Of a DNA stretch of 64,000 nt, positions 15,911 through 63,748 are shown one piece after another. A program made the position numbers and the translations under genes. Positions within the stretch are counted from its first letter, which is position 1. Each line of letters begins with the position of its first letter. The stretch comes from Bryum argenteum. Lineage: Eukaryota > Streptophyta > Bryopsida > Bryales > Bryaceae. The notes beneath the pieces were generated by a model. It made no database searches and had not been told where the DNA came from. It was given only the letters and a program-made list of their open reading frames with translations. The stretch covers positions 18,363,601 to 18,427,600 of the forward strand of contig CM073322.1 of NCBI GenBank assembly GCA_037043015.1, read 5' to 3'.

Positions 15911-16204
15911 CATCCTCCTATGTATGCAACTTTGTTTCTGGTCCTGCTCCCATGTACTCTTGCCAAAAAGAACCACTGTCTTCATAGTCAGAGCAAAATG
16001 ATAACCACTCTCAAAAGGACTGCACAAGCTGCTCTTCTAAGCATTACCGCAGTTTAACCCTTAAACGTCAGAGCATGCCCTTCGGGCTTGGTTTCCAGTG
16101 TATTTTCAGAGGGGCTTGACGTTTAAGGGTTAACTTTACCGCATTATAAAAGGATGAGTAATGCCATACAACACTGAACCAGGCTGTGGTAGTCACATAC
16201 TCCA
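15911..16204. repeat. Direct repeat R' flanking the SUMO-protease copy (right)
   Basis: Second copy of 13213-13432. The extra length is due mainly to an 80-bp TTAA-flanked insertion at 16054-16133. The pair of repeats brackets the duplicated protease segment. Confidence 0.8.
16054..16133. mobile_element. 80-bp TTAA-flanked MITE (piggyBac-like), copy 1
   Basis: Starts TTAACCCTTAAACGTCAGAG and ends with the inverse, CTTGACGTTTAAGGGTTAA. The paralogous site at about 13340 reads GCAG-TTCAA-CTCG with no element, so the insertion duplicated only the TTAA. A second copy of the same length is at 38281-38360. TTAA duplication with ends beginning CCC is the piggyBac signature. Confidence 0.8.
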
Positions 16205-16259
16205 CCTCGTCACAAATCAAACACAGTTCACACTTTGTTAATTCATCAACTTCACCCAA

Positions 16260-17000
16260 AAACTAGTGAAGTTGCCTGCTATGGTTGGCCACAGAAGCAA
16301 ACGATCGGTTGAAAGCATCTTCCACAGTCGGTTGAAGGGAACCAGAGGTTCTTTCTGTGAGGGCAGATCAACCAGTTGCAAGTATTAAATCTGGAACACG
16401 CGGTCCTTCAATTGCATCCTTCGTCATCATTCGAACGAAGAATTCATACAGTGAAGCTAACCTCCCAGGATGATTCTGGCACATTATTGCATAACATGGT
16501 TATGGCCTCATCCAAATAAGAGCACCGCTTCAAGCACTTCTCTTAATTTGCTTATCCTGAGTTTTCTTCAAAGAATCGTCAACCCTAAGCAATGGCGTTC
16601 AATGATGCGTGCAAATCATTCCTCGTCATCTCATACTCTCCTGAGATGAGAATGCTGCTTGCGTACCATTTGAGGTCACAGGAAGCCCGTTCGTACGAGT
16701 GAGCGCGTCCGGTAATTAGAAGCAGCCTACGACGAATCTCCCCTATCTTTCACATGCATCTTCCTACAAGGAGCTAGCGGCGTTTCGTGCTTACGACAGT
16801 CGTTCTTGTTTGTTCAGTATCTTCTACAAGGAGAGTGAAGAAACCCCGAGATGGTCTCTACATTCAAGAAATCCTCATTTCAATGGTCCTAGAACACTTG
16901 TGCGAATTTCTAGCTCTTCTCCGATGGCAATCAGTTCTCGAGAAGGGGTGAGGGGGTGAAATTGCATTGGAACCATCTGCAGGCGCGCCATATCACCAGA
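16260..17000 (-). pseudogene. Strongly decayed SUMO-protease relic
   Basis: Patchy similarity to the SUMO-protease gene in the same orientation. 16365-16425 resembles 9058-9115 next to exon 2 (GGGCAGAT, AAGTATTAAAT and TCCTTGAAT-like blocks). 16590-16690 resembles exon 1 at 9805-9915. CCCGAGATGGT near 16845 matches the parental CTCGAGATGGTT. No usable frame remains. It is older than the copy at 13439-14443. The assignment rests on several short matches in the right order rather than one long one. Confidence 0.5.
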
Positions 17001-17417
17001 TAATCTAGCGCTCGTTCAACACTCACAGATCTTTCAAAAGAACTGCAAATCCTAACCTACCATTGACCACGTCACCCAATCCGACATGAAATGAAAGAGC
17101 GACAACAATGGCCAGGGATTCAGATTCACCGACGCGAACAGGAACGGCAATGATCAACAGATTCATTGGGGGATCAAACTTCAGAAAGCAGAAATTCATG
17201 CATACTAGATTCTGTTCATCCCGGAGCATGGCGGAGCTCTGCCTCTGATTGCAATCACTCGTAGATACATCCAAATTTTGTAAGTTCAGATTTTGTTGTT
17301 AAGATCCCTTTCCGGGTAGTATTGAAACAAGAGAAACCATTACAAAGTCCAAGGCAATAAGTTTTCAACTACAGGAATCGCATTTTACAGTGTAAATTCT
17401 AGACAATCATTATTGTG

Positions 17418-17858
17418 TAAGGTAGAATGACCTTAAACCGCGCGGCCCCCCGGAAGCGCAGGGTTGACCGCCCATGTAGCCGTCCATGGCGTGGACCTTA
17501 TTGCACGCAGAGGAGTTGTGAAATCTGAGTGTGCATAGTGACTCGATATGGAATTGTGTAGGGAGGTGATTGGTTCATGGTTCGTTAACTCTATTTTGCA
17601 CGGTTTCAGCTACATGCGTGAGGGCCACAAAATAGTCGTCTGCCGGATAAAAAGGAGAGTCTACTAATCACTTTAAGGTATGTACACTTTTGACTTCAAA
17701 AATATGTAGTAAATTCAATTTTTGATATTTTATTTTCGAAATTTTTGCATTCACTCTCCCTCCTGTTTCCCCATCCAAGAAAATTTACAAATAGTATACA
17801 CGAGGTCCACAACCATGTTGAATCTTTTATTTGCACGGTTTAAGGTCATTCTACCTTA
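17418..17858. mobile_element. 441-bp inverted-repeat element
   Basis: Ends TAAGGTAGAATGACCTTAAA (left) and TTTAAGGTCATTCTACCTTA (right) are perfect inverted repeats continuing to CCG/CGG. Non-coding. No clear target duplication outside the repeats, so the superfamily is unassigned. Confidence 0.75.
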
Positions 17859-17993
17859 TCTGGACATGACTACCACCACTTTCCACACCAAGTAGTGAAT
17901 GAATTTTATTATGTAGTGCAAGCACAAGACATAACCACCTTGTTGGAATGAAAATTTGGATCATGAATGGTTGAAGATGACCTTTATTTCTTC

Positions 17994-18156
17994 GGGCATG
18001 TTTACACTACGGTGAAGAAGTCCACGAGTCAAGAAATTAAGGTAAAATCTCAAATGAGATTGGTTGAAATTGAGGCTCTTGAACTGTGACTGCTTGAAAA
18101 TGAAACTCTTGACAAATTAGTGGCCTTCTTCACCATAGTGTAAATTAAACCGGCCC
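17994..18156. mobile_element. 163-bp MITE
   Basis: Left GGGCATGTTTACACTACGGT and right end (inverse) GGGCCGGTTTAATTTACACT flank a core beginning TGAAGAAG. The inverted ends align with a short gap, and GGGC termini suggest a PIF/Harbinger-type MITE. Confidence 0.6.
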
Positions 18157-18925
18157 TTTGTGTCCAAGTACATCGAAGTCCTCAAAGATCCTAGATTACT
18201 AAGCTTGAAGTATTATTGCATCATTTTGATCATTGTATGGTATAATCGTCAAGGTGGCTTGTTAATCAATATAATAGGTTGGTATGTTCAAATGAAGTTA
18301 GCTTGGTGAGTTCAAGTGGACCTCAATTAAATGTAATGTTAAGTAAAAAGTAATATAGAGTGATGTTAAGATGACAATGAATGCATTTCCCTCATTTTAT
18401 ATGGCCGGAGGTAAAATGCATGTGAATTATATGTATTGTTTGTTTTGGTAAAGAGAAGTAAAATATGTTATTGCATAAGAATCTTACAAATTGAAAACGA
18501 TTGCTCATAACCATGTGTGGATGTTTGTTGTATATTGAAATATGTTAATGGTACATGTATGAAAATTCATGTAGTGCGTTCTCACAATTCTTGAATGCTT
18601 CTAGTTCTGAGATTGTCTTTTGCGCAAACTAATCTCGTATAAATAATCAGCCTTCCTAAAAATGACTAAATTTTCTCATAACCGGAGAACTTGTAAACCA
18701 TTGCAATTTGAACCATTTAAATATGTGCGTTTGAAAAAAAAAAATTGCATACTTAGAGTGATTTATTTTTTCCCAAATGTGTTGCATTATAATCTTAAAA
18801 TAAAAAAGTTGTCCATGTAGGGATAATAGAAACCAACGACCTTGCTTCTAAACTTTGTACAAAGCAAATGACTGGTGGTCACATCTAATCTCTCGAGATA
18901 ACTAACTAGCCTCTATTATCTACAA

Positions 18926-19420
18926 ATGAAAGGCTACTTCAACCTTGTTGACGAAAGAAGTTCGCTAAAAGCTAATTGCCCAGTGACCACATTGAAAATT
19001 CTAAACATTTTCAAAGAGCTAATGCGCCTCGTTAACCACGGATGGATGGTTGATCCAACCATCTTGCTAGAATATTCTTGTAGGAAAATACTAACTTGTG
19101 TCCACATCAAACATTCGCACAACTAATGTGCCTTGTTATTAACAAATAGGTATTTAATCCAGCCTCTTTGTCCGCAAAATTTCGTTAGCACGAGGAATTT
19201 TAATCCAACCTCCTTGTTGGAAAAATTCCAATGGAAGACATAAATGACTACATCAAAAATTTTGAAACAAGTGATGTGCCTCATTATATACGAATGGATG
19301 GTTAATTCAACCTCCTTTTTAGAAAAAGTTTGATGGAGGAATCCAACTAGTGGCCACATCAGACTTTCTGATGATTGATGTGGCTTGTTGTCCTCAAACA
19401 AGTGGCACATCAAGGCTTTG
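18926..19420. repeat. Degenerate tandem array, about 115-bp unit
   Basis: Recurring blocks resembling ATGGATGGTTGATCCAACC, CTCCTTGTTGGAAAA and CCACATCAAA follow each other about every 115 bp for four imperfect units. ORFs across it simply follow the repeat. Confidence 0.5.
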
Positions 19421-22400
19421 GCAAAATGGTGTAAAAAATACCGCCATTTAACGGAATTGAGGTTAAAGGTAAAAGCCCAAATATACCAATTTTAAGGAAT
19501 CACTTCCCTAGGGTAATAACCAACATATACCATCAAAGAATCTTTTACATAACTACGAGATAATTCTGATAAACATTCATATTGATAAATTTCATAATCC
19601 ATTTACCAATACATTTATGTCATTTCATATTGAAACAAAGTTCATTTATTGGAGTGTTATTATCATTGATTTGTTTAATGATGAAGTTTTCTATGAGTGT
19701 AATGTTTCCTAATTATTACAAATCATTACAAAATAAATTGAATTAGTCGCAAGTTACTAGAACATCTGTTTCTATAATACTGTAGTTATTCTAGATCATT
19801 GAGTTTGAATATTTTTGTACTGGAGTTGAGAAAATTATATTTTGCTTTCATTGGTGGGAATGCAATTTTTGAATGAAACCTATTACATTAAAATATAGTT
19901 TTTTTGTTGTACGAAAGTTAGCAAATTTACTTCATTTGAAATCAAACACGCATTGCTATGTGATGGGCAATACGATATATGTTGCAGCTGCAAAATATTT
20001 GTTACAAATTCTAACTCAAGCTACTAGTCTTTGTGATTGATAACAACTAGTGTTGAAGTAGGCAATTGTAGTAGAAAAACAATTGGTTACCCTTTAGAAG
20101 GGGTATAACATAACATAAAAGAAGATGGAAATAAGATCTTTCTTGAAAGATTTTGGTTAAAATCACTTACCTTTCTGTTCTACAAGGTCAATGGTTCATT
20201 ATATAGAATTTGCATTTTTTAAAAGGATGCAACTATCATTCAACAATAGAGATACTCTTATAACACTCTATAAATTTGTTATGAGTTTTTAAGATTGCAA
20301 ATCCCAGTTGCTAATATGTGAGTATGAAATTAACATAGTATTATTCAAAAGTCTCATGTAAATGATGTCTAAAGGTCTAATAAAAGTCATTTGTCACAAA
20401 TAGTCAATAAGGCTAGAAAAATATATTTTGAACGAGCAATAGACCTTTCAATCGGTGAATAATGAGAATGTTTGAAAAACCTTGATTTTTATAAATTTAG
20501 TTTAGTAGCTAGAGGTGAAACATTTTTCGATCACAAAACAAGTAGTCCAACAGGAGGCAAATTGTTGATTTGTTGCATGATGGCATTGTGGCTAAAACTC
20601 GAGTAATTACAAAACAAGTGGTCCACCTGTAAAGCATGCGCTTATTAATTGCATGATGGCAATGGAGATAAAACCCTTCAAACTTCGTCACAAATCGGGT
20701 GATGTAAGGCAACGGGATGGTATCAATGCAAAAAAACCCCTCAAATCTTTGTCTCATAACAGGTGGTGTAATGCAAGCGGTGATTCTTTTGCATGGTTGA
20801 ATCCTAGCAAAGACACACTTGTTCAGAAGGCGTGTGGTTGTTGACCATTAGTAATTACGTAACGACCCACAACCTTTGCATGATGAACAACGGAAGTCAT
20901 CTTGACAATTGATGATTATCTAAAGAGACCCTTAACCTTTGCGTGAGAAGGTAGGGGGTGGGTGTTGACCAATGGTGATCACCACATGAACCCTTGACTG
21001 TTGCGTAACATAACAACAACAATACGTGAATATAAACATCTTCACCCAACACAAAATATAGTTGCCAATAACATTACATGCCACTTCTATAATCCCTCTC
21101 ACTTTACAATCACTTCAACAACAATGCAAAATTCGGCCCCTTGCAGTGCCTTAACCAATCGGACCGTGTCACAATGTGAATTTGTGCATCCTGGGAATGC
21201 ATGAGAGACTATTTTAAGCTCGTTTAGAGGAGTTTTTCCATTATGGAATCGTATAATAGCCCTCCCTTGTGCATGACTTATTGGTGGTAAAACACTATCA
21301 CACTTCATGATTTTTAAGCGATATTTGTACTAAAAACTAAAAAAGTTTTGAAGAGCAATATCCGTGAGATCATTGGACCACCGAACATAATGTTTGTGAA
21401 TTGGAGAAAACAACACACACTCAGGCTAGTTAATGTTACTCTGATGTTTTGATAACAAATGCTCTTTTGGTAAGGAATCAAGCGATTATCTTAAAACAAT
21501 AGTAGATTCATTCATACATGCCTTACACCCTCAATATTGTAGATAAGTCTTGTCATATGGTGAGTTTTGGGTCTTCAATTTTGAATCTAGCCCAAATGTT
21601 AATTAGGTACCCTAATGTTGTTATCAAAATTGATCACAAGTATTATCCTTGCAATGAGAGCGTCGTCGCACTTATACTTAGGAGTGACATTGGTCTGGCC
21701 TTTTTTTAACCTACAAATTTTATGTGCTCCATACTACACTTAGCCTTAGATGGATGAGGAGTTGAGCGCACTCGGCAAAACACTCATTGTAGTGGTGTAT
21801 TTCTATGTCTTTAACAAGATTATAATTATTCAATAATAATATTACTAGATATTTTATTATTATTTTATTACTTTTGTTTTAAAGTGCATGCATATGGAGT
21901 GTGAAACTTACGACACTATCTGCATTAGTTGGTGGCGGCACAAGACAACTGTACGTGTCTTGCCAAGTTTAAGTGTGGCTTCAAAGCGCGTATTTATATT
22001 GAAAATACATAATTGATAGGTAGTCACATATAATTTTGACATTTTCACACAATGAAGCAATATTGTAGGATGGCTTTAAATAGGGAGGGACTGGGTAGAT
22101 TAAAATGTGCAACACGGTTGATGAAACGACATAGAGAATTAAATTAAGACCAATCATTGCGGATATTTAAGGGAGAAATGGGCTGCAACCAAAGTTGGTG
22201 AGGTACAACAAACCATCTCATAGAAACATTTTCACCAATACACTCCAATGTATCGTTTCGTAACAGGTGGCATGGAGTGGAGCTCGGCCAAACAGGTTTT
22301 CCCAAGTTAGAGTATGTCCCTTTCATGTGTCAAAAAGACGCAATAATATGCCTTTCCAACTTCTCATAAACCTTTTCACACTCAACAACATTTGTCTTGC

Positions 22401-23124
22401 ATTTGTATTGCAACCTTTCAAAACCGCTCTCTACTTTCAAACCCCAACAACCACATTATTTTGGTGTATCCTTGAAGTTGAAAAAACAAACCAATCACAT
22501 GAAGGAAATTTTTACCTTCCTTCGACCCCATGACTCCCCATGTATAACGTCAGAAGGAAATCTATCTAATAAGTTCCTATATTAGGTTTTGAGAGGAATG
22601 TTTAAGACTTTGTAGCTTTGCCCCAATTCTTCGACAAGCCATATTCCAGTTTCCGGATGTAGCAAAGCAGCACCCAAACCGTGACACAAGTTTGAAGCAT
22701 GAGGACTTCCCTTTCAAAAGTAAGCAATGTGTTTATGTCATGTGGGCATATCATCAAGGGTAGATCGAACGGACACTTTATTCACGCCAACCCTTACGGG
22801 TCTGGTGTTCATCTTCTTCTAAGCAATGTGGATACCCAAGCCAAAGATTTGAGTGAAGAATATTCCCAGAGAAAGAGATGCTGGAACAGTGAGTGCAGAA
22901 GGAGGGTCATGAATCTTGTTGAAGAGAGGAACGCACGAGCTGAGTGGAACGGGACCATGGAAGTGACTGTCTCCAGGATAGGAGCCCATGTGAGAGTTGG
23001 CGTGGGGAGGGGGATGAATGGCGGTGGATTGAGCATATCCAATGAACAGAAAAAGAACGGATGAATGTTGTTCGCATGCTAGCGAGCAGGGGTAGGCTCC
23101 GACGACGTCAGAGAGGAGCGACGC

Positions 23125-23131
23125 TATAAAT
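23125..23131 (+). promoter_or_regulatory. TATA box of the helicase gene
   Basis: TATAAAT in GC-rich context, about 220 bp before the start codon at 23352. An ACGTCA bZIP-type motif lies just upstream at 23105-23110. Confidence 0.5.
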
Positions 23132-23351
23132 GGGAGGCGGAGGCCTCCACTGCTCCTTCATTGCTCGCGCTCCTGCTCGTGCTCGCTGCCGAAGGCAACA
23201 AGGATGCCACTCTCTGCCACTCTCTCCTGCATTGGCAATTGTAGCAGTAGTCGATTCGGGATTGGAATTGGAATCGGATTCGGGCTGTTTTTGAACGAGG
23301 AGGAGGAGGACGACTCCTGCTGCGTTTTGAGTTTTCTCGGGAGTGGTAGCC

Positions 23352-26300
23352 ATGGGCTGGGTGGATTTGGACCTGAATCTGCCGCCTCCTCCCCCTGACC
23401 CTGATGGCGACAACACGCCCCTGCCCTCGCCCACGCCCGCGCCTGCGCCCGCGGCAGAGCGCGCCGGACAGTCCGAGCAGCCTGAGGCTCGTGAGCACGC
23501 TGCTGCGGGGGCTGTGGTTGAAGGTGAGGACTCTGGTACCGACTTTAGGGTTTGTGATGATGCAGGGAGGGTTAGAGAAGGCGAAAAGGATGAGAAGGTT
23601 GAGAGCGGCGAAGAGGAAATTGATGTCGTTTCTAGGGTTGCATCTCGTGCAAGAATGAATGCTGCTGCTACTCCCTCTGAAGAGATCGCGAGTGATGAGA
23701 TTGCGCAGAAGCCAGTACGCAAGCGGCTGCGTACCTTAGGGCAGCTAAGGAGTGAGAGAATTACCCCTGCTGTTAGCCCTGATCGTGAGAAGGCGACTCC
23801 TGATTGTAGTGTCGTAACAGCGACGACGTCAATAGTGGAAGAAGACGATGCCAAATTGGAAGAAGATGATGGAAAAGCTGTGCGAAAGAGTTCTTCGGAC
23901 GGGAAGCCGGATCGTCCTGTCTTGGCCGTTGGTGATGCTTCGAAGAAAATGGAGATTTTAATTCAGGATGATAAGATGCAGATAGATGGCGAGGAAGCAT
24001 CCTCGAAGAAGAAGTTGACTTCTGTGAAAGAAGCAATTACGGATAAACGCCGGCGGCCTATAGTTGTGCTGGAAGGAGACGTGCAAGCACCGCCGAAGAG
24101 GGCTCGATTGCCGAGGCAACCTTTGAAGAGAACTAGGTCTTTTGGAGGGGTCATCGTCGGTGAGAATGTTCACGAGGGTCCTAAATCTGCTGGGAGAGGG
24201 TTGAAGCTTGAGTCTCCTCAGAGCAGTGAGTCTGGAAAAAGTTCCAACCCGCTGGGAAATGGGAAGGAAGTTAGGTTTCCTTCTCAAACGGCTGGTTCAG
24301 GTAGCAAGGAACTGAAGAGACAAGCAGTGAAGGAGGATGAGGATGGAGATGCCGAAATGGCTCAGCAAGTCGAAAGCGAGGTAGCTGAAGGCAGTGGAGT
24401 GTCGGAAGAAAAGCAGGGCGACAAAAATGGTAATGCTACTGTTGGCGTTACAGTTCCCCGTAGGCCTCGCAAACTGAAAGATAATCCACTTCCTCCTCGA
24501 GCCACACGTATAGTAAAGCCTCCCCCTGTCGTCAAGCCTACCGAGTTCATCAGGCCCACTGTAAAGAAGCCCTCTGTTGCAGCTCCCCTGCGAAGGACAT
24601 CTTCGACTGTTGGTACCAGTTCCCGGGCTGATTCAAGACCGGCATTTCAAGACACGACCATTGAGAGGCTTCAACGAGAAGCAACCTGCAGCAAACTTTG
24701 GCAATCTCCAGGTTTGTTTCTATCCTCGTCTACGTTTGACTGCGTTTCTTATCATGCAAAGTTTCTGGTAAGCATTCTTTTCATACCATGATCGATGTGT
24801 GGACTTCTCACCCTCTCCAACTGCTGGAACAGTAGTATTTCGTTTGTGAAAGTTGCACATGCCCTGATCGTTCAGGTGCGGATCTAACAATTAGCAACGA
24901 TTCTCTGACTAACACCTTGGTCCTTCACGCAAGAATATCCGATTATCATACAATCCATGCGTCGAGTCTAAATTAGTCAGTCGAGGAATCTTGCCACGGG
25001 TTCTGTTCTCGTGTACTAATGCGATAGGAATTACATTTATACTCGTTAGCAGTTGCCCCTAAAGCTCGAAATAAGAATGTCTTTTTAATTCAAATTGGTC
25101 CATGCGCTTTCAACGAGGGCAACCTTAATTGACGATCAATTGCATTCATTTTTTAAAGCCCAACGCATGTTACTTCGCGTTGCACAATGTTTTTGAATCT
25201 AAAACTCTTTCAGGTGAGATAGATTGGAGGTTAATCAATTGTTGTATAGTATAAATGTATAGCTCTTGTTGTGTTTTCTCCTTATGTACCATCAATGTCC
25301 TTCCACGCATGGAGCCGTTTGTTTGGATAAACCGCTATCGACGTTTTCAGAAGGCCTCCTATACCTTGATCGTGTTGTAGAAGTTGAATAGTTGTATGCT
25401 AGTGTTATTCTTCTTCGCGTTTCCCTCCATAAATAAATCTTCGCACAACGGAGGGGTCATGTATAATACTCCAGTACGATAACCTCTTCTTGACACATCG
25501 TTATTCAGTTTGGAGGTTTTCTTCTCCCTGCTATGATTTCGATCATATATCGAGCTCATGGTGTCGCACGTATGATGGGATCATGGGTTAGTTAGTGCCT
25601 TCAGTTCAGAGGGTTATTCCGAAAGTCTCAACTCAAAAGGACCTACTTCAGAGAAGCAAGCATCCAGATATAGATGGTTTGTTTGTTGGAGGTGGAATGT
25701 GGGCAAGGGCTTGATGTGTTACCATTCGGGCTCTCGGGTCGCAGGTATGATGGGGGGTGGTTTGTCTGTATCATCTCTTGCCTGTATCAATGACAGGCTG
25801 CTGCCTTGGACTGTGGCTCATGGGACTGTCAATGGCTGATTGTCAAACGCTGATGCATCATCCATGCATCTTTTTGAGCACGGCTATACCTTCTGGAGCA
25901 TGCAAGACAAGGCATCAGGTGTTCTCACTACTAGATTAATGTTGACGGGTTGTTGTTCCTAGGCAGCTTTCAGAGTACGTCAATGCAGGTCACTTCTCTT
26001 GTGACAGGAATGAATCCTTGCTTGACTGTCTCTCACGAGTTGTGGGCCAAGTTTGGACACCATGTCGAACCTTCCTAATGTTTGAAATTTCGAACGTATG
26101 AGTGTTAGTTTTTTCTAAAATTCAATGACTAATTTTGTCTATTTGCGCGTCTTTCGAGCATGACTGTTTTTATGTCGCCCCATGCGGGGATTGGTAACTG
26201 TTCTAGATGAATTTCATATTGCGTATCAACCATCTCTCCTCGCTAATAATGTGCGGAATGGCTTCTTTACTCGTTGCGCAGGGAATTCTGATTTGCAGAA

Positions 26301-35188: not shown

Positions 35189-35769
35189 CATAGTATATAA
35201 CGGCATGAATACAAGCTTATTCGAAGATCCTTCTTTGAGTTGCAGCAAAGACCATCTTCACGGCACAGCGAAGCTCTAAACCGCAACGAGAGATTAGACA
35301 TAGGACTCTAAGGTATGGCAACTCCAGTTTGATGGGAAGATCACCGAAGCGAAAGGATCAAAGCATTTGACCAGATACGTACTTTGCTCGGAAGAATTGC
35401 AAAGCCACACACAATCGGAAAATTCTGATTCTACTCCTCTATATAATCAAGATGAGCACTAAAATACAACCGCTTGTATTAACTCCCATGTGATTAGATC
35501 ATTTGTACCTTCAATTTGCATCTTTATCGAGCAATGGAGAAGTACTTTGTCTTGATCAGAGTCTAGGGGTCTCAAAGTATCAAAAGTCTCATATTGATTA
35601 TAACACTAGTCCGAACTGCATGTATGTTACTGCCGGCAGAAGAAAAGGGAGTGTACCTCACATCGACATCGGCACATTCATAAGCGGTTTTTCAGAGCTA
35701 ATTTGAAATGTACAGTATTTAGACTCGTTTTACAGAGCAAGCAAATCCGCAACTGGACTGGCAATCTAG
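35189..35769. other. Intergenic between convergent kinesin and EF-hand genes
   Basis: Shared 3' flanks of the two genes. Nothing else recognised. Confidence 0.6.
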
Positions 35770-37173: not shown

Positions 37174-37176
37174 TAA

Positions 37177-38280: not shown

Positions 38281-38360
38281 TTAACCCTTAAACTTCCAAG
38301 CATGCCCCTCGGGCTTGGTTTCCAGTGTATTTTCATAGGAGCTTGACGTTTAAGGGTTAA
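38281..38360. mobile_element. 80-bp TTAA-flanked MITE, copy 2
   Basis: Begins TTAACCCTTAAACTTCCAAG and ends GCTTGACGTTTAAGGGTTAA. Same length and core (GGGCTTGGTTTCCAGTGTAT) as 16054-16133. No flanking duplication other than TTAA. Confidence 0.8.
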
Positions 38361-38869: not shown

Positions 38870-39308
38870 AAAAAAAAAAAAATCTTGGAAAAAATTCAAA
38901 ATCTCGAATTTTGGCAATTTTTGAAAGAAAAAATTGTAAAATTACTAGAAATTGTGAAGATTGTTTTTGAAAGTTTTGGAGGTTGCCCTTATAAAATTGG
39001 TAAACTTTTTGACTTCGGATACTTTGGAATTTGAATAGTAAATTGGTAATGAACATAAATTTGAATTAAAAATATTAAAAAAATAAATTAAAAAAAAAAT
39101 TATCTGCCCGTTTTGGACTTGAAACCTAAAATTTCTAGATGAAGGTTATGAAATTAAAATTTGGCTTTACAAATTTTACCACATACACATTACAGTATGG
39201 GGAGCATCCAGTAAAAATCTTAGGCAATAATATCAATTTAATTCCTTAAAATGAGCTTCCCGAAATCTCAAAAAACCGAATGAGTTTTCCTGGATTTTTA
39301 GGGGTTAA
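38870..39308. mobile_element. Truncated TTAA-element, family B
   Basis: The right end GATTTTTAGGGGTTAA (39293-39308) and about 370 bp inward match the right part of 48250-48835 (shared TTTTACCACATACAC and GGGAGCA(C/T)CCA blocks). The left end is not identifiable. Confidence 0.55.
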
Positions 39309-41279
39309 ATCCTCTTAAAAATAAATTCTAAAACTCATAAATGATAATGTTAACATGTGTTTTTTGTTTATGATTTTCGCTTTTAGAATCAAGAGCAAGG
39401 GATCACTCTCACTAGCTTACAAATGTAGCATGAGATTCTGAACAACTCTAGTGAAACAAGGTAATGTAACTTTATCCAAATGTAGTAAGCATACATCACC
39501 TCCTTGTGTTACTAGAATAACCAATAACTTTCACTTAACTCTTAAACGCCCATGGGTCTGAAAGGGACAACCAACATTGGATCACAACATATTTTGGGCT
39601 TGGGCATCATGGATAGTGCACTTTTTGAACTTGGGCATCAATCAATCAATAATGAGCTTGCAACCTCCTACAAGGTTATGTACAACCCCAACCTACCTAC
39701 CACAATCCTTTCAAAGCACAAAATCACTCATACAAAGTGTAATATGAATTGTAAATTTCGTTTTCCGAATGCATCAACCAGTTTGACATCAAAAGATAAG
39801 TGAAAAGTTGAGTACAATGAGAGCTACAGAGAAGATTCTGTCGGAATCAAGCCCCGTCGGGCTTCCTTGGGCTTGCAAGGATTAATCTGTTTGAGCTTTA
39901 AGCTTAACATGAGCAATTCTTCTGCATCAAAACACATCCTCTCGTTGTTCAACTTTCGAGGCATCAAGAAACAGAGACTTACCAAGTATTCTTCTCTTTC
40001 TGACCTTATCCTCCTGAATACCTTCAGTACACATGTGTGTCCAGCTTTCCGCCAACTTAATTGCTGCTCTGAATAGTGTACAGACATGTCCAGCTTTCAG
40101 CCAACTTAATTGCTTCTCCACTAATAGCTCCTAGCGTATATATATTTGCAATAAGCACCTGTCATAGTTGATCCATTCAAACACATGATTCCTTTGCCTG
40201 TTTAATCAATTTAAAGCATTGAGTCTCTGAATTGTGTACGGATTTTTTTTTTCTTCAACCTCAAGCGGAGACGTCTGTCGGAGCAAGGTCCACATGGTCG
40301 GTCAGAGATCCATTTGGAAAGTGCAATATTGTTCAGGAGATTTGAAAGGGCCCATCAAAATAATACTGAAGATCTACAGTATAATGACTTGTATGTGTGA
40401 ACGCACGTAAGATAGGTTAGCATGAATCGACTACAAAGAATCTATCCACAATGATGGTCAACAGATTTGCAGAGTCGATCGAAACTTACAGCTGCACTGG
40501 GGCTGTCAGAGGCATCAGCATGCTTTTTAGAGCCTTTCTATCCGTGAAGATGATGTTTGTTTTGGTGCATTTTTAAGGCACTGTGATTTGTCCTTTTCCA
40601 GCATATATTTCTTTTGTGTTCCTATGAATGTGGATGGAAACTTTGTCTGAGCTCGAATGCAAGCTACTGTAACTGTCATTTTTTGATGATCATTATACCC
40701 TTTTTGAACTGTGTTGTTCTGGTGTAAACCTAACACTATATGGTGCCTCATTATTTCAGATGTAAGTCTGAACATCTCTGTGATGAGGCCTCCTCATTGA
40801 CGCAACATTTTCTTGTCCAAAATTGTGCAGATTTCGTTCAGTTGTCGAATGTTGTTGATGAGAATGTGAATTGAAAAACTCACTAAAATGTGAAAATCTC
40901 GATGTGTGATAATCATATTTCAAAAACTTCAAAACATCTAGACTTATGGATATCTGCGGGCGAAAAAAAAGGACAATTCAACGTGTACTCTTCTCTCTCT
41001 CTCTCAAAACACCATGATTTACCAAAGATGGTTGGATTTTCTTTGTCCAATCGGCATGAGCTTTAAAATATCAAATATCTTGGATTCTTTTTGAGACGAG
41101 TGTTGGTGTTTTTCCGGAGACAGAGGAGTATGCACTTTAGATTGTGAGATACAACGATTTTGAATGCCCTCCAAAATGTACACAAGTGATAGATTTAGAG
41201 CCATTTGACCTAAACCTATTTCCCTCCTTGGCACTGGAAGTTTTTTCCAGTTTATCAAATATGTGTTCAAGAGGCGCCT

Positions 41280-46175: not shown

Positions 46176-46934
46176 TGATTCCATCTCGTGTCAGATTCCG
46201 GATCTCCCTCTGGACTCGCGGTTTACCCGCCATTGTAATTCTATTCTCTACTTAACCCTGAACGGGTCTTACCAGCAATAGTACAAAATAGTCAATAGCG
46301 CTTGATCGTCAAGTGAGTTCCTTCTGTTGTGATTATTGATCTTATTGGAGTTTTTCCCTGTCTTTCTCAGGTATAAGCACCTAAAAGAAACCACACATGA
46401 TCATATCTATACTATTCAGCTGAGTTTCGAAAGCTCGTATCAGTCTCTCTTGGTTTCTTGGATATACATATGATTGGATTTGAGAACATGATCACTACAA
46501 ATACCTTACTGAGATTGAGTTGTGTCTGTTGATAGTCTTACTTTTGATTCTGTACCACGAGCTTTCAGTAGGCAGAGTTGAAGGTACATAGTAAATGGAG
46601 CAGGTCCCATAATGTAGCTCTAGTAATCTTTACTCAGAGGTACATATTAGCTTTCCCATACAATAGTATCATCATGTACTTATTGCATACATTATAGGGT
46701 GCCACTTTAAGGTATCATTTTAGAAACAGCTATATTTTCAATTTGAAAAATTTATAACTCATTGTAGAAGAGTCCAATAATGATGATTCTACTCACTCTA
46801 TCTTTCTACTAATTTTTGGCACTCAAGAAAATTGCATGCACTAGCAACATTCCTATAATTTTCCCCTGTTGATCTACTATTGAGCACCTCACTATATGTG
46901 GCTAAATTCCGTGGGTAATGTACAGTAGGGTGAC

Positions 46935-47590: not shown

Positions 47591-48249
47591 ATTATTTAAG
47601 TAAGGTAAAGCTAGACAAAGTAAAAGATATTGGTATCTAAGTAGACACTTATTCATTGTAAACTTAAATATTGGATTAATATCATTCTTCTTTGTATGTG
47701 ATTGTTTTGACATCTATACTTTCATATAATCCTAAAATGGGACAGGGTAAGGAGACTAAAATGGGGCAGGGTAAAGAGGTTAATTCAAAGACAAAGAGGA
47801 AAATGACTATCAACACTAAACTCTCAAATGGGCCATACATTGAGGCTAGTAAAAAGCGAGGCCTTGTCCAACTAGAATTGCCAATTTCAATGTCTAAATT
47901 ATTGGAGCAAGCAAGGACTGCTAAGGAGCAAGCAAGGATTGTTGGGGAGAAGAGAAAGACCATGCCAAATGAAGCCAAAAACGAAACGGCCTTATCGCTC
48001 CCAAAAATCCAAAGCTTCTAAGAATAAGCTTCAATCTTCTCATGTTGAAAACTCATAAATTGATACAGTCCCCTTCATCTGCACAAGCACGAATTCTTAG
48101 AAGTAATACTCAGAGCCACAGACTTTGTTCTGAGAGTATGTACAGTAGATTATGCCTATACCGGGATGACCCCCCCCCCCCAAATTCCCTTCTCAAGAGG
48201 AATTGTCCCCATGAACAGACTAGCATAGCTGAACGTAGAGATTCAGTTG

Positions 48250-48835
48250 TTAACCCCTAAAGATCCTTGGGTGTTTTTGGGAGCTTAAAACCTCAAAACT
48301 CCAATTCTCTACCTCTATGCACTTCAAGGGGTGCGAAACAATTCTTTTATTCTTTTCTTAACTTCCAACCGTAAGATCTTGTACCTAAGCCAATTTTCAG
48401 TATCTGATATAAAAATTGACCGTTGGATGTTTACCATTTGAGAGATTATAGCATCCAAAGTTTGTTTACGAAGTTTTTTTGGGCATTGTTGATATTATTT
48501 TTGACACTTTTGGAGGCTGCCCTTGTAAAATTGGTACACTTTTTGACTTGGGGCCCTTTGGAACTTAAGTAGTGATTTGGTCATGAACATATTTCCAAAA
48601 AAAAAATTCAAAAAAATACTAAATTTAAACTGCCCCAGTTCGGCTCGCAAACCAAGAATTGTTGTAGAAGACTCAAAAATTGGAATTTGGCTTTGTAAAT
48701 TTTACCACATACACTTTGCAGTATAGGGAGCACCCATTAAAAAAATTAGGCAAAAATATTACTTTTAACCTATTCATCTAAGCTGCCCAAAATAGCAAAA
48801 GCCCGATTTGGTCCTCTTGGATCTTTAGGGGTTAA
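48250..48835. mobile_element. TTAA-flanked element, family B, 586 bp
   Basis: Begins TTAACCCCTAAAGATCCTTG and ends CTTGGATCTTTAGGGGTTAA; 17 terminal bases on each side are perfectly inverted. No coding capacity. The same element in reverse orientation is at 62608-63169. Confidence 0.85.
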
Positions 48836-53500: not shown

Positions 53501-53844
53501 TCCGCGAGATCCGCGCCGCGATCAATAAGATCCAGCTTCCAGAGCTTCTTCATAATCACGGCCTTGCCCTTGTAGGTGACCATGTCGCCGGAGTTGCCGG
53601 CTCCCTTCTCCTGGGTGCTCTCCTTCTTGCTGCCGAACAGGGAGTTGGCCAAGCCGCCCAACCGGTTGCCGAGTCCTGGGGAGGACGACTCGAGCCGTCC
53701 GGCACCCTCGGCACCCGCGGAGGCCCGGACGCCCAAGCTCACACGGCGCGGGGTGGCCACGCCGCTCCTCAACAATGCGGCATCGCGGCCTACTCCCTGC
53801 AACGCCGACGCCGCGGCCCCTGTCTTGAACTGGCTCAGCAACAT
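50508..53844 (-). CDS. LOX: Plastid lipoxygenase (13-LOX-like)
   Basis: Seven exons in minus-strand order: 53844-53436, 53350-53076, 52969-52711, 52634-52278, 52185-52100, 52022-50772, 50693-50508; 940 residues. Lipoxygenases add O2 to linoleic or linolenic acid to give hydroperoxides for oxylipin and jasmonate-type signals. About the first 50 residues are Ala/Ser/Arg-rich, as in a plastid transit peptide. A PLAT/LH2 domain follows (about 90-225), then the catalytic domain. The signature H-x4-H-x4-H-x17-H-x8-H is exact (H596, H601, H606, H624, H633). Iron ligands are H601, H606, H793, N797 and the C-terminal Ile940 (...SITI). [12 protein letters not shown] and the HAAINFGQY block are also typical. 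ISAGG keeps the Ala of S-specific enzymes. Exon GC content is well above the flanks. A possible TATA (TTATAAG on the minus strand) lies near 53961-53968. Product regiospecificity is inferred from the plastid targeting only. Confidence 0.95.
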
Positions 53845-56212: not shown

Positions 56213-56598
56213 GGTTGAAGTACCCATAACCACCAACATAAGAAAATTCGCCCATTTGTAAATGGTCTATTTATAGTGGGTGATTTTTTTGGGTAGCAAG
56301 ATAGTTTTTAGGAGGGTTTGTAATTTTTTTATATTTTTTTGTAAAACACATGAATTAATACAAATTTTCAAACAGTAAAGTACTGCAGGACCCGTAATCA
56401 ACCTATAGGGTATGCAAAAACCACCTTAGCTGGTACAAATTTCCATTCATGATTCGACCCAAAACCACCAGCTTTTTGACTGTTTTGATTGGTCAGTTTG
56501 AATTGAGTGTTCTGACAATGCTAGTTCAGGCTAGGTGCGGTTATTGGGAGATCTACATGTTGCTAGTGGGGGTGCTGGTGGTTATGGGTACTTCAACC
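56213..56598. mobile_element. 386-bp inverted-repeat element
   Basis: Starts GGTTGAAGTACCCATAACCA and ends with the inverse, TGGTTATGGGTACTTCAACC, a perfect match over these 20 bp that continues inward. Non-coding. No clear target duplication. Confidence 0.75.
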
Positions 56599-56689
56599 AT
56601 AGTGAGACTTTAATGAGTTGTTATGGGTCACATGAAACTTCTTTCGTACTTTTCCTAGCATTTTTATCAAAAAGCATATCAACCTCTAA

Positions 56690-56885
56690 CTTTCCTAAAA
56701 ATTAAAGGAGATTCTTGCGATTTTAGGGAGCCTAGATGAAGGGGTCGAAAGTAATAGTTTTGCATAAGATTTTTACTGGGTACTTCCTCTACCACAAAAT
56801 GTATGTGATAAAGTTTGCAGAACCAAATTCCATATCTGGAACCTTCATCAAGGAATTTTGTTCTCAAGCCCAAAAAGGGCGGTTT
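56690..56885. mobile_element. Decayed fragment of TTAA family B
   Basis: Reverse-orientation similarity to the right half of 48250-48835: TTTTTACTGGGTACTTCCTC and CAAAATGTATGTGATAAAGT-type blocks match the shared GGGAGCACCCA and ACCACATACAC regions. Ends are lost. Confidence 0.4.
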
Positions 56886-57239
56886 AGATTTTCAATTGCT
56901 TGTTCGGTTTAATTTTATCTTGAAATCTGTTCACCAGAAAATTTAGGTACTAAAGATCAATGTTTTCATTGGAGGCTATAGTAAGAGTCTCCTTACAAGA
57001 TTCAAAATTATTAAAGCACAACTAAATACACGATGCAATCACTTATTGGCACAAGTCAGACAAAAATGACTTGGAAAATAGTTTTGGAAGGAGCCATCCA
57101 CATCAATAGGTATCTAGGCTTTCTAAACTTTGAAAATCTAAAACAAATAAAATATTACACTTGCTATGTATGTACAATGACGATCCATGAACTCCAAGGA
57201 ACCATGTTCCTATGTATACATGTATGTACAATGGCATGA

Positions 57240-57545
57240 TAATAAGGAGGCATGGCGGAACGAGGAATGAGGAAACATGGGCACCAGGAACGAAAGGAAC
57301 GGGGGACGAGACCATGAGGATCAAGGGAATGTGGGAACGAGGCGATGGGGAATGGAGGCATGGGAGAACGGGGAAGAAGGAAACATGGGAATGAAAGAAG
57401 GAAGAGAGGAACGAGGATAGAGGGGCACGAGGGAATGGAGGCATGGGAGAACGAGGAAAAAGGAAACTAGGAAATGAAGGAAGGAAGAGAGGAACGAGGA
57501 TACAAGGGTACATGGAAACAAGGGCACGAGGGAATGGAGGCCCTT
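57240..57545. repeat. Purine-rich minisatellite
   Basis: About 300 bp of almost pure A/G with regularly spaced C and T. A unit of roughly 100 bp (GAATGGAGGCATGGGAGAAC ... GAGAGGAACGAGGATA) occurs at least twice (about 57350 and 57433). The strand asymmetry creates long but meaningless ORFs. Confidence 0.8.
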
Positions 57546-57586
57546 CTTTTGAGCACATCCAGAGGATACGTGTACATACAAGTTCA

Positions 57587-58456
57587 TAGTGTTGTTCCAG
57601 TTTCCCCTTGTCCGGTGGCCATCGGGATATTAGCATTACGAACGGACACTTCATTCACGCCGGCCCCTAAAAAGGGACTGGGGTTTCTATCTATGTATCT
57701 ATCTTTATTCATAGCAATTGACAAAATCATACATCCACTTTTATTATTTTTCATTCTAAGCCGCAAATAAGCGACGGAAAAAATAAAAATGAAAGTCATC
57801 AACACCTAATGTTCATTGTAAGAAGGCTAAACATCTCGAATGCCCAATAATAAGTGTTCCTACTCTCTAGGGTGCAGGGGAGTCCTATCTACAAGGACGC
57901 ACGCTGTCTGAAATATCGCTATTGCCCAATGGGCTGGTCCATCCATTCCAGCAAAACCCGGTGGCAACGTCGCGCCTGCACATCTTCCATCCGAACCGGC
58001 CTGGTTGGGGAGATTTTTCATAATTGATGTGTCAGGCTATATCTCTGCATTCATCTTTTCCTTTGCATCTTTAACTGCTCAATTTCCCATGTGCACCATG
58101 CTTAGAGAATGGTATTGGTAGATTGGCCTCGTGGTTGCCATGTATATGTTGTTGTTGGGGGAGAGACCGAACAAGACTACGAGTTTCTTAGTTCCTAGCC
58201 TTTTTGCGAGAAGAGTGTTTGTTCCCTTTAGCGGGGTCCCGAGGTCCACCAAATTCCAACATCAACTCCAAAAACTCATGGGGAGTAAATATCTAAATTT
58301 TTAAATGCATCTCAAAAAGGAGAATCTTTTTGTTCTCGAAATAGATAGATAGATAGAAACTCCGGTTCTTTCTAAGGGGCCGGCGTGAATGAAGTGTCCG
58401 TTCGTAATGCTAATATCCCGATGGCCACCGGACAAGGGGAAATTAGAACAATACTA
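57587..58456. mobile_element. 870-bp element with long (about 120-bp) inverted ends
   Basis: Left end TAGTGTTGTTCCAGTTTCCC then CCTTGTCCGGTGGCCATCGG. The right end is its inverse (CCGATGGCCACCGGACAAGG, GGGGAAATTAGAACAATACT). The similarity runs on through CATTACGAACGGACACTTCA to a (GATA)n-type tract at both inner edges (57690-57710, 58340-58357). The interior has no ORF of note. Fragments of its ends occur near 22765 and 54620. Confidence 0.8.
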
Positions 58457-58723
58457 CTTCCCCCTCTCAAGGGTGGACACTATAACTACGCTAGTTTCTA
58501 GCCTAGTTACTAGTGCCTTGAAAATACTTGACATAGTATCCCCTCAACACTTCAAATATTGATCAAGGAAAGGTATTTACCACTTCGCCAAATTCTTATG
58601 GGAACCTCGGGTTTGGCCATTAGGCTCACATGCGTGTAGGTCATGAGAAGACATAAAGATGTAGCTGTTTTTTTTTTTTTTTTTCCTCTTGTCGAAAGTG
58701 GAAAAATTATGAAAACGACAATT

Positions 58724-58991
58724 TTAACCTCTAAAGGTCCTTGATACAAAATTGTTTAAATTATCAAAAAGAACCTTCTTCTACTTCAGGTGCAAAGAAA
58801 CTCAATCTAAGCATTGATTAAAAGATTCAACCGTAGGATCTTAAAGTTAACTTGACCCTTTTCTCAAATGTCAAATTTGAACCGTTAATTTTTCTCCAAT
58901 TTTGAGATTATAATGGTCAAAGTTGGCTGAATTTTCTCCCTGCGAAAATTCCGAAAAGCGATTTCCGCTTTCTTGGACCTTTAGGGGTTAA
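58724..58991. mobile_element. TTAA-flanked element, family C, 268 bp
   Basis: Starts TTAACCTCTAAAGGTCCTTG and ends CTTGGACCTTTAGGGGTTAA. Non-coding, with internal similarity to 48250-48835 around the block TTCAACCGTAGGATC. Confidence 0.8.
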
Positions 58992-60720
58992 TGAAGGGTG
59001 AAACTTTGAAGAGCCATAATTTCTCCAACTGGAATCATTTTTTGACAAAATCACTTCAATCGCATCCCAATCAAGTCTAACTTTGTGTGGCAAAAGTTGG
59101 AGACATATACAACAAGTATTAACCCTTGGTTGGGCCAAATGTCAAAAAATGATATTTTGGATGACTGCAACATCTTTGAAGAGCTATAATTTCTCCATTT
59201 GGAATCTCTTTAGAATGAAATCACTTGCACTAGCTCCCGAATCAAGTTTAGCTTGTGTAGCAAAGATTGCAAACTCATGAAATGGATCATGAATAAATGG
59301 CATGCATTTTAGAAGGCAACTCTTGTTTTTGAGTTTTCAAACATGGGGTATGTTTTACCATTGTAGGGCAAATTTGGGAAATCAATAAGATGTTTTTATG
59401 ATTTTTTTTTTTTTTTTTTCTTTTAATGGAATCATGGTCTCAACATGAAGGTTAATAAATTTATGGTTGGAAGATTTTTTATCCAAATACTTTTGGTATT
59501 TGGATTTGTAACGATGATTCTAGCCCGAGAAAAAGTAAATATATGGGTGACTTTTGAGGTGCTTTATCTCCTTCAGCCACCGTTGGATTTTGACTTTATT
59601 TTCTGAGATAGATTCTAATGAGGGTCTAGTTTTAGTGGTAGAAAACTCAAAAAAAAAATTGAAGATGTATTGAAGATAGGGCATAGATTTGAGTGCCAAG
59701 GGTTGAGTTTTGGGTTATTTTTCCTTTGTAAAATTTTTGGCAGTTATCATCATTGTTGGCATAGAGAACTATTTCTCATGGATTTTTTTTCGTTCAAGGG
59801 CGTTATTGAGATGAAGGTAAAGATCTTTGCAGTTGGTGATTGTTTTATTGGAATAAGTATATTGGTAACCTTTTCACTTCAATATGAAGATGTTAAGATT
59901 TTCTGATGTTTTTTGGGTACTAATACGGTATGATCTTGCAATCTATGAGGCCTCATGACTCAAAATTTGAGCCACATGATGTACAATATGTCTATTACAT
60001 TATTGGACAATTGAGATCTAAGTAACTTACCTATGGTTCTATTTATGGCATTTTTTGGAGAATGAGTCCAACCATTTAGGGGTTAATACTCACATGCATT
60101 TTAGTGAAGGCAATTTTTGTTTTTGGTTTTTTAAACATGGAGAGGGGGGGGGGCATGTCTTACCATTACAAGTCAACTATGTGAAATTTGAATAAGTTTT
60201 TTGACAATTTTTGATATTATACTTTAGGATGAATTCACCTACCTTAAGAATTTGATTTTATACTTGAGGATGAATTTTGATTGGAGTCTAGTCTTAGTAG
60301 TAGAAAGCTTGACCACATCAAGAATGTTTTGAAGATGAGGTATGTATTTAAATGCAAAGGGTCTAAGTTATTATTATTATTATATTTTTTAGAAAATAGT
60401 TTTTGTGGTAATTCTTTACGATTGCAAGGCTAGTATTTAAACCAAGATATTTCTTGATATTTCTTGATATTTGTTTCGTATAAGAGTGTTGTTGAAATGA
60501 AGGTGAACAAATTTTAATCAATGATTTTTACTGGAGTAGTTTTTTGGTCGCTTTTCCACACTAAATTGAAAAAAATGGCGGAATTTGATATCTCCTTTTT
60601 TGGGTACTTACACATAATTATGGTCTCACAATCTATGGCCTATGACTCATATTTTGGTACATATGACCTACAATAACACTTTTTATGGTTGAGATCCATT
60701 GCAAACAACTTATTTTTATC
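58992..60720. repeat. Dispersed, internally repeated non-coding element
   Basis: 58997-59115 and 59165-59280 are diverged tandem copies (CTTTGAAGAGC(C/T)ATAATTTCTCC). 59288-59900 and 60090-60560 repeat one another and resemble 11540-12180 and 15590-15890 (blocks like GTTGGATTT(T/C), GCAAGGCTA(T/G)TATTT, GAGTTTTCAAACATGG). A further copy starts at 63340. No protein and no clear ends. Confidence 0.55.
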
Positions 60721-62607
60721 TTTACTCATGTCAATATTTTCAACTTTGTGTTTTATAGCTTGGAATAGCCCATAACCTTGAAGGATTAGATTGAAAATGA
60801 TACGTGAAAATTGAATCTCAACAAATACTTAATGTGTGCAACTTATGCGTAGAGTAGATTAACTCCTATGTACTGAAATCTCTTGAGTACATTTATAACA
60901 TAACCCTTAAACGCCTTCATAAACGATTTAGGGCAGCATGGGGTATATTTTGCGTCTAGGCATCGGAAGTACGAGCATCGGACAGGCATTGGTCTTGCGA
61001 AATGCACGTTTAGGAACGAGGGAGGTGAGCGGCAGCGAGGGTTAGCCGACATGTCGGGGCTGGGTACCGATTGTGGAAAGACTGGCGGGCAGAGAAGGCC
61101 GGCCGACAGCCACTCGCCTCTACAGACCCACATCACCTACCTGCCTTTGTCTCATTCTTTTCAAAAAAAATTCAAAGAGAAGGTATGTTCCGATAAGGTT
61201 GAATGACAATCAAAGTTTGCACTTTCGGACAATCATGTGCTGTAGCCAGAGACAAGAAGTAAGAAGTAACAAAGAGGTCAGAGATCATTGCAAATGACCA
61301 AGCAAATAATGTAAATGTGCGGAGACAGAAAAAGACTTGGTGTAGAATTGAATTTAGTCTCATGTAGACTCAACAACATTTGAATTTCTTGATTATTTTG
61401 AAGGAGATCATGTTCATTTTACTTGGTGAGCCGTAGAGCTGCTATCCAAACTCGACGAGTTGGATAGCCAAAAACGCCCCGTGGAAATAAATGATAGAAT
61501 CTGAACTGTCACTTTACCATGAAATTACAACCGAAATGGTGTAACCGCGTCGGGCACCTCTACGGGCTTCTCTACGGGCATTTCAGTCAATATGTTAACA
61601 ATTTCCACATAGAAATGCAAATGTGAGATATGTTTAGATCGTCTACTTACCATGACTTTCTTGTATAAAATCCATCCGTTCAAAACTGATTGGTCTAAGA
61701 TATAAAAAAGATTAATTATATCACCACTTTTGATTCCTTTTTGTGCAAAGAGTAGTATCCTCTCATTTGATCATGCACTTCAACGCCCCTCATGTGCTCT
61801 TCATAGTGCAACAACACCGGAGAGGCCAGGATTTCAATATTTCCCCATATGCCAACGGTTATAAACAAAGATTTGGAGTCATCTATGAGACTACACGTCA
61901 TTGAGAGCAAGGAAACGGGTTTGTCTCGGGCGGTGGAGAACCTCTACCCCTTCGTCTGCCCACCAAATCTCTCTTACAAATTTGTTTACATAATCACTGA
62001 AACTGTGATACTCACCTTCTCCGCATTTCAGTCCAGCCCAACAGCGACGCAACGTGCCGGCAAAGCAAGAAGCGGAAATTTCTAGCACAGACACTGTCGG
62101 TAAGATAATTCTCAGCAGAAGTGGCAACGAATGAGCCAATTAGTAAGACATAGACGGAACCAAGTCCCGTGAGAGCTACGCCTCTCTAGGACCGATGGTG
62201 CCACCATCGCAAGGCCGTTGCTTTGTGAACAATTGCAGCAACGACAAACAACAATGTCTGATGCCCCGGACACACTAAAATTGGAGACACCTTCTGATGC
62301 AGGGAACAAAAGCAAAATCTCCAAGCTTGCAACGACAAAACGCAACGGCACACAACAACACACAGGAAAAATTGAATACTGCACAAATGCAAGCGTCTGT
62401 CTCTTACAACATATCGCCGAAAGAGTTGGGATTGAAACTGCGATCGATACAGTCACGAATTGTTGACGGGATCAACGCCTTCCGAAATCTGCTTTTGCTC
62501 CAACGAGATTGATATCCACTGCGAGACGCTACATCCGCCCAGTTCGCTCCTACAGTAGCTAGAACAGTCCAAACGGACCCCTTGGGGTCACCTTTGTTCT
62601 TTGAGAG

Positions 62608-63169
62608 TTAACTCCTAAAGATCCAAGAAGACCAAATGTAGCTTTTGCTACTTCCGGCAGCCTTGATGAATGGCTTAAAGGAAATATTTTTGCCTAATTT
62701 TTTATTGAGGTGCTCCCTATGATGCAAAGTATGTGGTAAAAACTACAAAGCCAAATTCCAATTTTTGAGTCTTTAACGACAATTCTTTAATTGCAAGTCG
62801 AACTCGGGCAGTTAAAACTTGGTTATTAAAAAATAAAAATAAAAATAGAAATGTGTTTATAACCAAATCACTAATGTTCCAAAGAGCCTTAAGTCAAAAG
62901 AGTACCAATTTTACAAGGGCAACGTCTAGAAGTGTCAAAAACAATCTTGTCGATGCCCAAAAGACTTGGGAGACAAGCTTTGGATGTTATGATATTTCAA
63001 TCACTTTTAGAGTTGTAATAATTATATTCTTAGGTACATGATGTTATATTTGGAAGTTAAAAAACAAAGAAAACAAATCCTTTCACACCCTCGGGAGTGC
63101 ATAGAGGTAGAGAATCGTAGTTTTAATGTTCCAAGCTCTCAAAAATATACAAGGCTCTCAAAGGGTTAA
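62608..63169. mobile_element. TTAA-flanked element, family B, inverted, 562 bp
   Basis: Starts TTAACTCCTAAAGATCCAAG and ends CTCTCAAAGGGTTAA. It is the reverse-orientation relative of 48250-48835 along most of its length. Its outer right end is more diverged. Confidence 0.75.
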
Positions 63170-63481
63170 GCCCTACACAACCTGAATGTTGAAAATCAAC
63201 ATATTGGATAAGGGGCAAGATAATTAAACAACGATAACTTCCACATCTAAATTCTCTTTTAGATAAAAAATACTTCGAAATTGAGTCCCAAATTAAGACT
63301 ACTTTATGTGGTAAAAATTTCAAAGCCATAGAAAAAGTATGAATAAATGACATACATTTTACTAAATACAACTCTTGTTTATGAGTTTTCAAACATGGAC
63401 CATGTTTTATCATTGTAAGGCAATTATGGAAAATCAAATAGATGCTTTTATGATTTATTATTTTATTTTAGAATTATAATC

Positions 63482-63748
63482 TTAACCCCTGAGCGCCCCA
63501 ACGGACTAAATCTGTCCGCCAAGAATTTGTCCGATCAGAAGTCAACCCAACTTTGACTAGTATAATAAATAAATCCATACGGTCATTTTGACTCAAATTT
63601 TCAGCACACATTCATACCCTAATCATATTCCAACTTCAACGGTTGGATCTACTTGATCCCATGTTTCTTTGCGCCACGTCACTTTAAACAGATCAAGGTT
63701 CACCACAGCCTAATTTTGCTTGATATGGAGGGGGCGCTCAGGGGTTAA
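63482..63748. mobile_element. TTAA-flanked element, family C-like, 267 bp
   Basis: Starts TTAACCCCTGAGCGCCCC and ends GGGGCGCTCAGGGGTTAA, a perfect 18-bp inverted pair including TTAA. Non-coding. Confidence 0.85.

Follow-up and report, generated by a model that had tools for sequence, protein, structure and literature searches.

The 64-kb stretch of DNA examined here (C2:18363601-18427600, hereafter the window) carries a number of short repeats that begin and end in TTAA, and the question it raises is what these elements are and which transposase could have moved them. The assembly to which it belongs, 258.8 Mb in 25 contigs, was searched for the answer; about 11 of the contigs are large, ten of them totalling 251.4 Mb (summed from printed values) and C11 measuring at least 6.48 Mb. 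We conclude that the elements of the window are, almost certainly, non-autonomous members, or miniature inverted-repeat transposable elements (MITEs), of several lineages of the piggyBac superfamily, already known and mainly from animals, that are resident in a land-plant genome.

Six elements had been claimed in a preliminary description of the window, and TTAA stands at each outer end of all six, next to inverted CCC-type ends: 16054..16133 and 38281..38360 (80 bp each), 48250..48835 (586 bp), 62608..63169 (562 bp), 58724..58991 (268 bp) and 63482..63748 (267 bp), the 562-bp element lying on the minus strand and the others on the plus strand. The formula proposed there for the bases that follow TTAA, CC(C/T)(C/T)T(A/G)A, fails for the 562-bp element, the ends of which (left TTAACTCC, right TTAACCCTTTG) depart from it, the left one having decayed to CTCC; the other ends fit 5'-CC(C/T). 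The statement that no flanking duplication other than TTAA is present holds, none being seen in the 8 bases on either side of the six elements. A blind scan of the window for inverted pairs bounded by TTAA, less than 1.5 kb in length and agreeing in at least 11 of the 14 bases after TTAA, returned seven pairs, five of them claimed elements, compared with four pairs in total (0.2 each) in 20 first-order Markov sequences. The element at 62608-63169 was not recovered by the scan because its ends have decayed.

These six elements make up four families, of 80 bp, about 570 bp, 268 bp and 267 bp. The second 80-bp copy is 92.5% identical to the one at 16054, which has perfect ends of 17 bp including the TTAA. 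The 562-bp and 586-bp elements are one family (78% identical, in opposite orientation), as had been proposed. The 58724 and 63482 elements, which had been paired in the same way, are unrelated families of practically equal length; kinship between them was considered and rejected, their identity of 45-48% comparing with a mean of 45% and a maximum of 51% in 20 shuffled controls. Two truncated relatives of the 586-bp family that had also been described are real: 38870..39308 (plus strand), which retains an intact right end and matches 48485-48835 at 74% over 38951-39308, and 56690..56885 (minus strand), recognized by a sequence match of 74% between its bases 56748-56880 and 39106-39239.

Ends of this kind are abundant in the genome. 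The pattern TTAACCCYTRA has 15,056 + 15,247 = 30,303 matches and its reversal 523 + 530 = 1,053; if most ends are paired, elements with perfect ends would number of the order of 14,000. The 13-mer CCCCTAAAGATCC, taken from an end so as to leave out the TTAA, occurs in 2,086 copies (control, 2), and TTAA lies directly 5' of it in 1,746 of them. In the genome, 107 copies of the 80-bp element have exact ends of 16 bases (control, 0); among the 40 of 460 candidates that were scored, 39 besides the window copy are 94-99% identical. For the 267-bp family, the end TTAACCCCTGAGCGCCCC has 161 copies (control, 0), and, by our own count, 28 of 40 scored candidates out of 99, the window copy included, are full or near-full length at 94-100% identity, with two copies on C1 and C2 identical to that of the window over all 267 bases. 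Twenty copies taken from the best matches (13 of 267 bp and seven of 80 bp) were read with their flanks, and all 20 are bounded by TTAA on both sides in flanks that are otherwise unlike; one of them (L059) adjoins a further GGGTTAA.

The nature of the target can be read from four insertion sites that have empty homologues, each of which has one site of 4 bases, either TTAA or a variant form; TA or TWA duplications were not seen at any of the four. The clearest case is the insertion site of a full-length element in L038, an uninterrupted copy of which (L037:511-634) contains exactly one TTAA, and of which the window holds a further empty homologue at 59860..59982 (minus strand) with TTAG. The site at 13256..13431 (plus strand), a paralogue that lacks the 80-bp element found at 16054, reads GCAGT-TCAA-CT.. 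by eye, compared with GCAGT-TTAA-element-TTAA-CT.. at the occupied site. The empty homologue of the 63482-63748 site, at 59330..59488 (plus strand), has one TCAA in place of TTAA-element-TTAA, and a weaker one of the 58724-58991 site, in L021, has TGCA. Duplication of a TTAA target on insertion, as in piggyBac, is seen in this way exactly at L037 and in variant form elsewhere, beside the 1,746 of 2,086 ends that TTAA precedes.

The preliminary description had suggested that the elements have their own transposase elsewhere in the genome, and this is borne out. A genome search with the piggyBac profile PF13843 (DDE_Tnp_1_7) scored 116 of 775 candidates (best E value 7.4e-82); by a count from the table, 93 of these matches are free of internal stops. 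No match was found in 14 control genomes. Twenty transposase regions of 8.2 kb each (L029-L048) were fetched, and end pairs were picked by eye and then compared: in 15 of the 20, TTAA-CCC ends lie on both sides of the transposase frame, defining elements of 4.5-6.5 kb, and a frame of this type also lies between the 18-base ends of C9:15950755-15958377 (L072). The frame of L034, the one searched against the PDB, has only two matches there, piggyBac 6x67 (1.4e-28) and piggyBat 9c0f (3.8e-28), and in the HMMER alignment its LTIDE, VTMDKFF and RGVDVADQ, which we take to be the catalytic positions, coincide with the corresponding stretches of 6x67. In a set of 24 frames chosen for the first and third catalytic motifs, which reduced to 17 distinct copies after removal of seven repeat fetches, the middle aspartate motif pattern is present in 12 and a C-terminal cysteine-rich pattern in 11. 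No PIF/Harbinger or Mutator domain, which would have indicated another origin, was detected by Pfam on eight frames and five further frames.

Transposase cores, obtained from 17 regions (all of the 20 but L029, L031 and L036), fall into at least four clades, between which identity is 37-46%. Clade A comprises ten regions, with ends CCCCTAA where found, and clade B five, with ends CCCTTAA where found; clade C is represented by L035, with ends CCCCTCAAGG, and clade D by L046. The L072 transposase is assigned to clade C because it is 60% identical to that of L035.

Several of the window elements can be connected to these full-length relatives by more than their ends. Bases 1-239 and 381-586 of the 586-bp element, which is of the internal-deletion type, match, at about 69%, the left 240 and right 206 bases of the 6.4-kb element of clade A in L034. 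The 62608-63169 and 58724-58991 elements likewise match clade A elements at either end, beyond the terminal inverted repeat, the latter, of clade A type, in L043-L045, L038 and L034. The 80-bp family has ends that resemble those of clade B (L029/L030/L048), the match being limited to the outer 27-34 bases. The 267-bp family, with perfect ends of 18 bp, has those ends in common with the 7,623-bp element C9:15950755-15958377, which contains a piggyBac frame of 777 amino acids. Of the 161 end places of this family 100 were listed, and among these we count 40 pairs that span about 255-268 bp, along with 16 single ends and two pairs of greater length. A 1,821-bp derivative on C5 matches the C9 element in two blocks (1-685 and 684-1821) at 99-100%, and 267-bp copies such as C4:20588023-20588289 combine the first 46 bases of this derivative with its last 226, at 91-95%, so that the alignments make a clear and plain internal-deletion series from the C9 element through the 1,821-bp derivative to copies of the C4 type. 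Another place, C9:12049500-12056500, was tried as a full-length partner of the family and yielded another 267-bp copy only.

Some observations weigh against this reading and should be set beside it. Five of the 20 transposase regions (L031, L033, L036, L042 and L046) are without a clear end pair within 8.2 kb, and L042 is so despite a core identical to that of L043. The parent of the 80-bp family is inferred from the ends, because only 27-34 bp are common to it and clade B. The 267-bp copy of the window matches the C9 element only in its first 46 bases (91%), 47 further bases (74%) and its last 23 (100%), and by this comparison it is a sister type of the C4-type copies. The 20 flanked copies were drawn from best matches and their TTAA ends were partly built into the query. 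Exact TTAA is found in one empty copy (L037) only, the others having TTAG, TCAA, TCAA and TGCA; variant letters are as expected of old paralogues, though imperfect. Finally, close transposase pairs give ratios of nonsynonymous to synonymous substitution rates (dN/dS) of 0.46 and 0.67, on few changes.

The explanation that survives best besides resident piggyBac lineages is nevertheless very improbable. According to it, the piggyBac copies represent contamination or a single very recent transfer, an idea that draws on the fact that piggyBac is seldom reported from land plants. It is hard to reconcile with matches on each of the contigs C1-C11, with at least four clades that are 37-46% identical together with a decayed transposase relic, and with the position of the window elements between plant-type genes. 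Less probable still, to the point that we give it hardly any weight, is that these are Kolobok-type elements. These likewise duplicate TTAA and, in the available part of one paper (PMC9587614), are reported from chlorophytes and rhodophytes, but the same text gives their termini as 5'-RR..YY-3', whereas here they are 5'-CC..GG-3', and the transposase within the present ends is that of PF13843/piggyBac, which refutes a Kolobok origin for the families with a transposase in hand. That the elements are Tc1/mariner (TA) or PIF/Harbinger (TWA) MITEs with ends that happen to start with T and A, the TTAA being illusory, is equally negligible: these are standard kinds of plant MITE in the accessible text of one review (PMC10004981), but TTAA precedes 1,746 of the 2,086 end 13-mers, a single TTAA stands at the empty site in L037, and the paired transposase is piggyBac.

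The description of the window elements as piggyBac-like is supported in this way by their ends, by the PF13843 transposase between such ends and by the PDB matches, and suggests how they may have moved. The transposase that full-length members of 4.5-7.6 kb encode, which has three catalytic aspartates (DDD) and a cysteine-rich module at its C terminus, would bind TTAACCC-type ends, excise the element in a cut-and-paste manner and insert it into TTAA, leaving TTAA on both sides. Internal deletion of full-length members would account for most of the MITEs, and these would be mobilized by the transposase of a family with the same ends, a form of cross-mobilization. Recent activity is suggested by identical copies on different chromosomes, four transposase cores being 100% identical on three of them (C2, C8 and C9). 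In favor of the explanation are also the dN/dS estimates of the more diverged transposase pairs, of which the three usable ones are 0.24, 0.12 and 0.06; two pairs with identical proteins have a dS of 0.004, and one pair is saturated.

A more far-reaching reading is that a lineage of land plants harbors a piggyBac population that is large and diverse and has been active recently, in which clade A members have two genes (the transposase and a conserved upstream protein) and full-length elements pick up and move pieces of host genes as a counterpart of Pack-MULEs. We put it forward tentatively, as possible rather than probable.

The second gene of clade A would be a frame 5' of the transposase and on the same strand, with a conserved block of roughly 100 amino acids at its end (L034:5853-6986, L038:5966-7090 and L041:1015-2187). 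By tblastn, the block is found in 12 of the 20 regions, namely all ten of clade A and, weakly, L035 (1.5e-4) and L036 (4e-10). Estimates of dN/dS as a sign of selection on the frame are mixed: 0.18 for the block between L034 and L043, with saturated dS, and 0.55 for the block, on few changes, and 0.85 for the whole frame between L034 and L039. No Pfam family reached the cut-off on the two upstream frames scanned. The upstream frame may be a separate gene or a 5' exon; putative GT..AG borders, placed by eye in L034, L038 and L043, break the frame between the upstream frame and the transposase.

The evidence for transport of host genes comes from C9:15950755-15958377. Downstream of its transposase lie pieces with matches at three loci elsewhere, of which two are recognizable host genes: C9:5766751-5767561 (96-98%), C2:25353910-25354438 (97%) and C4:27534218-27534621 (94%). 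The first piece is the MGS part of the large chain of carbamoyl-phosphate synthase (Pfam 6.2e-19; PDB 5.9e-21) and the third a piece of a prenyltransferase (Pfam 7.9e-13; PDB Rab geranylgeranyltransferase beta 8.2e-4), both oriented with the transposase; the second has no Pfam match. The donor loci were judged by match coordinates, and 341 bases of the first donor were read. An origin of the carbamoyl-phosphate synthase piece from a spliced transcript was considered and rejected: a 273-bp stretch of the donor is absent from the element, and this gap is taken as a deletion, not an intron, because to the eye the stretch reads as coding and a short repeat is shared at the break. The 1,821-bp C5 derivative retains the third piece. 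Host gene pieces between transposon ends, with parental loci elsewhere, are what defines Pack-TYPE elements, and both the C9 element and its C5 derivative have them.

In comparison with piggyBac (6x67) and piggyBat (9c0f), the present elements share the TTAA target, CC(C/T) ends, PF13843, the catalytic aspartate motifs and a C-terminal cysteine-rich module. They differ in their land-plant host, in stop-to-stop frames of 469-1,331 amino acids compared with PDB chains of 594 and 578, in the conserved upstream frame of clade A and in the pieces of other loci within one full-length element. Animal piggyBac MITEs, such as mPok of Pokey in Daphnia and those of corals, are described in the available portions of the sources as short TTAA elements related to full-length piggyBac; here the host is a plant, and at least four families are present in 64 kb. 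The likeness to Pack-MULE and Pack-CACTA elements, as the accessible part of a review of Pack-TYPE elements presents them (PMC13317346), lies in the host gene pieces between transposon ends, whereas the carrier here is a piggyBac element and the largest also has a transposase frame.

That the elements might belong to an undescribed plant lineage, as had been suggested, agrees with the papers searched, although one review, in the part of it that is available, does list PiggyBac among angiosperm MITE superfamilies (PMC10004981). The accessible text of a 2022 review of land-plant transposons has six superfamilies with terminal inverted repeats and lacks the word piggyBac (PMC9033089), that of a 2008 paper has five such superfamilies described in plants, piggyBac not among them (PMC2528002), and the word is also absent from the available part of a 2026 review on how plant transposons capture genes (PMC13317346). 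Excerpts of other papers mention 1,230 piggyBac copies in C-fern, amounting to 0.00% of the assembly, and one 75-bp piggyBac element in Stipa, and one abstract speaks of piggyBac in insects, fungi and plants. A word search of one moss genome paper matched "piggybacking" only. Neither a gene-carrying plant piggyBac nor this host range and diversity was found in the open papers searched, a body of text that is distinct from supplements and repeat databases. At least 116 transposase matches, at least four clades and about 30,000 ends in one plant genome widen the host range of piggyBac and make its history in plants, by old inheritance or horizontal transfer, testable; they also offer natural plant transposases for TTAA-specific tools, and a TTAA transposon is seen to carry host gene pieces.

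The preliminary description missed a fifth family in the window, represented by a 968-bp TTAA-bounded element at 59119..60086 (strand not assigned) with unlike ends (TTAACCCTTGG.. and TTAACCCCTAAATGG..). A relative of it at L038 is interrupted and contains a clade A full-length element; one of its own ends is similar to the left end at L046, of clade D. Decayed relatives in the window occur at 11793-12127, 15724-15903, 59004-59094, 63185-63469 and 63753-63793. The 63482 element is flanked by two such relic pieces and was therefore inserted into a relic, and the 58724 element adjoins another. The window also holds, at 61543..61924 (minus strand), part of a piggyBac transposase gene of clade B in decay (81% to L040, with stops present) and a solo end of clade B type at 39535..39551 (plus strand; TTAACTCTTAAACGCCC).

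The host is taken to be a plant because two proteins of the window are of plant type. The lipoxygenase frame matches seed and other lipoxygenases in the PDB at 1.4e-130 to 8e-117, the next chain being 11R-lipoxygenase at 4e-41, and for the class 3 lipase the top matches are chains of phospholipase A1 (5e-48 to 5e-45), the next lipase following at 8e-9; the top chains for both are, partly from their names and otherwise presumably, of plant origin. A tandem gene duplication (9467-10878 and 13441-14845, 93%), one copy of which was scanned and gave no Pfam match, has its second copy before the 80-bp element of 16054. Lastly, the repeats 39692-39872 and 46593-46816 recur beside or inside the piggyBac loci L046 and L034 at 68-83%.

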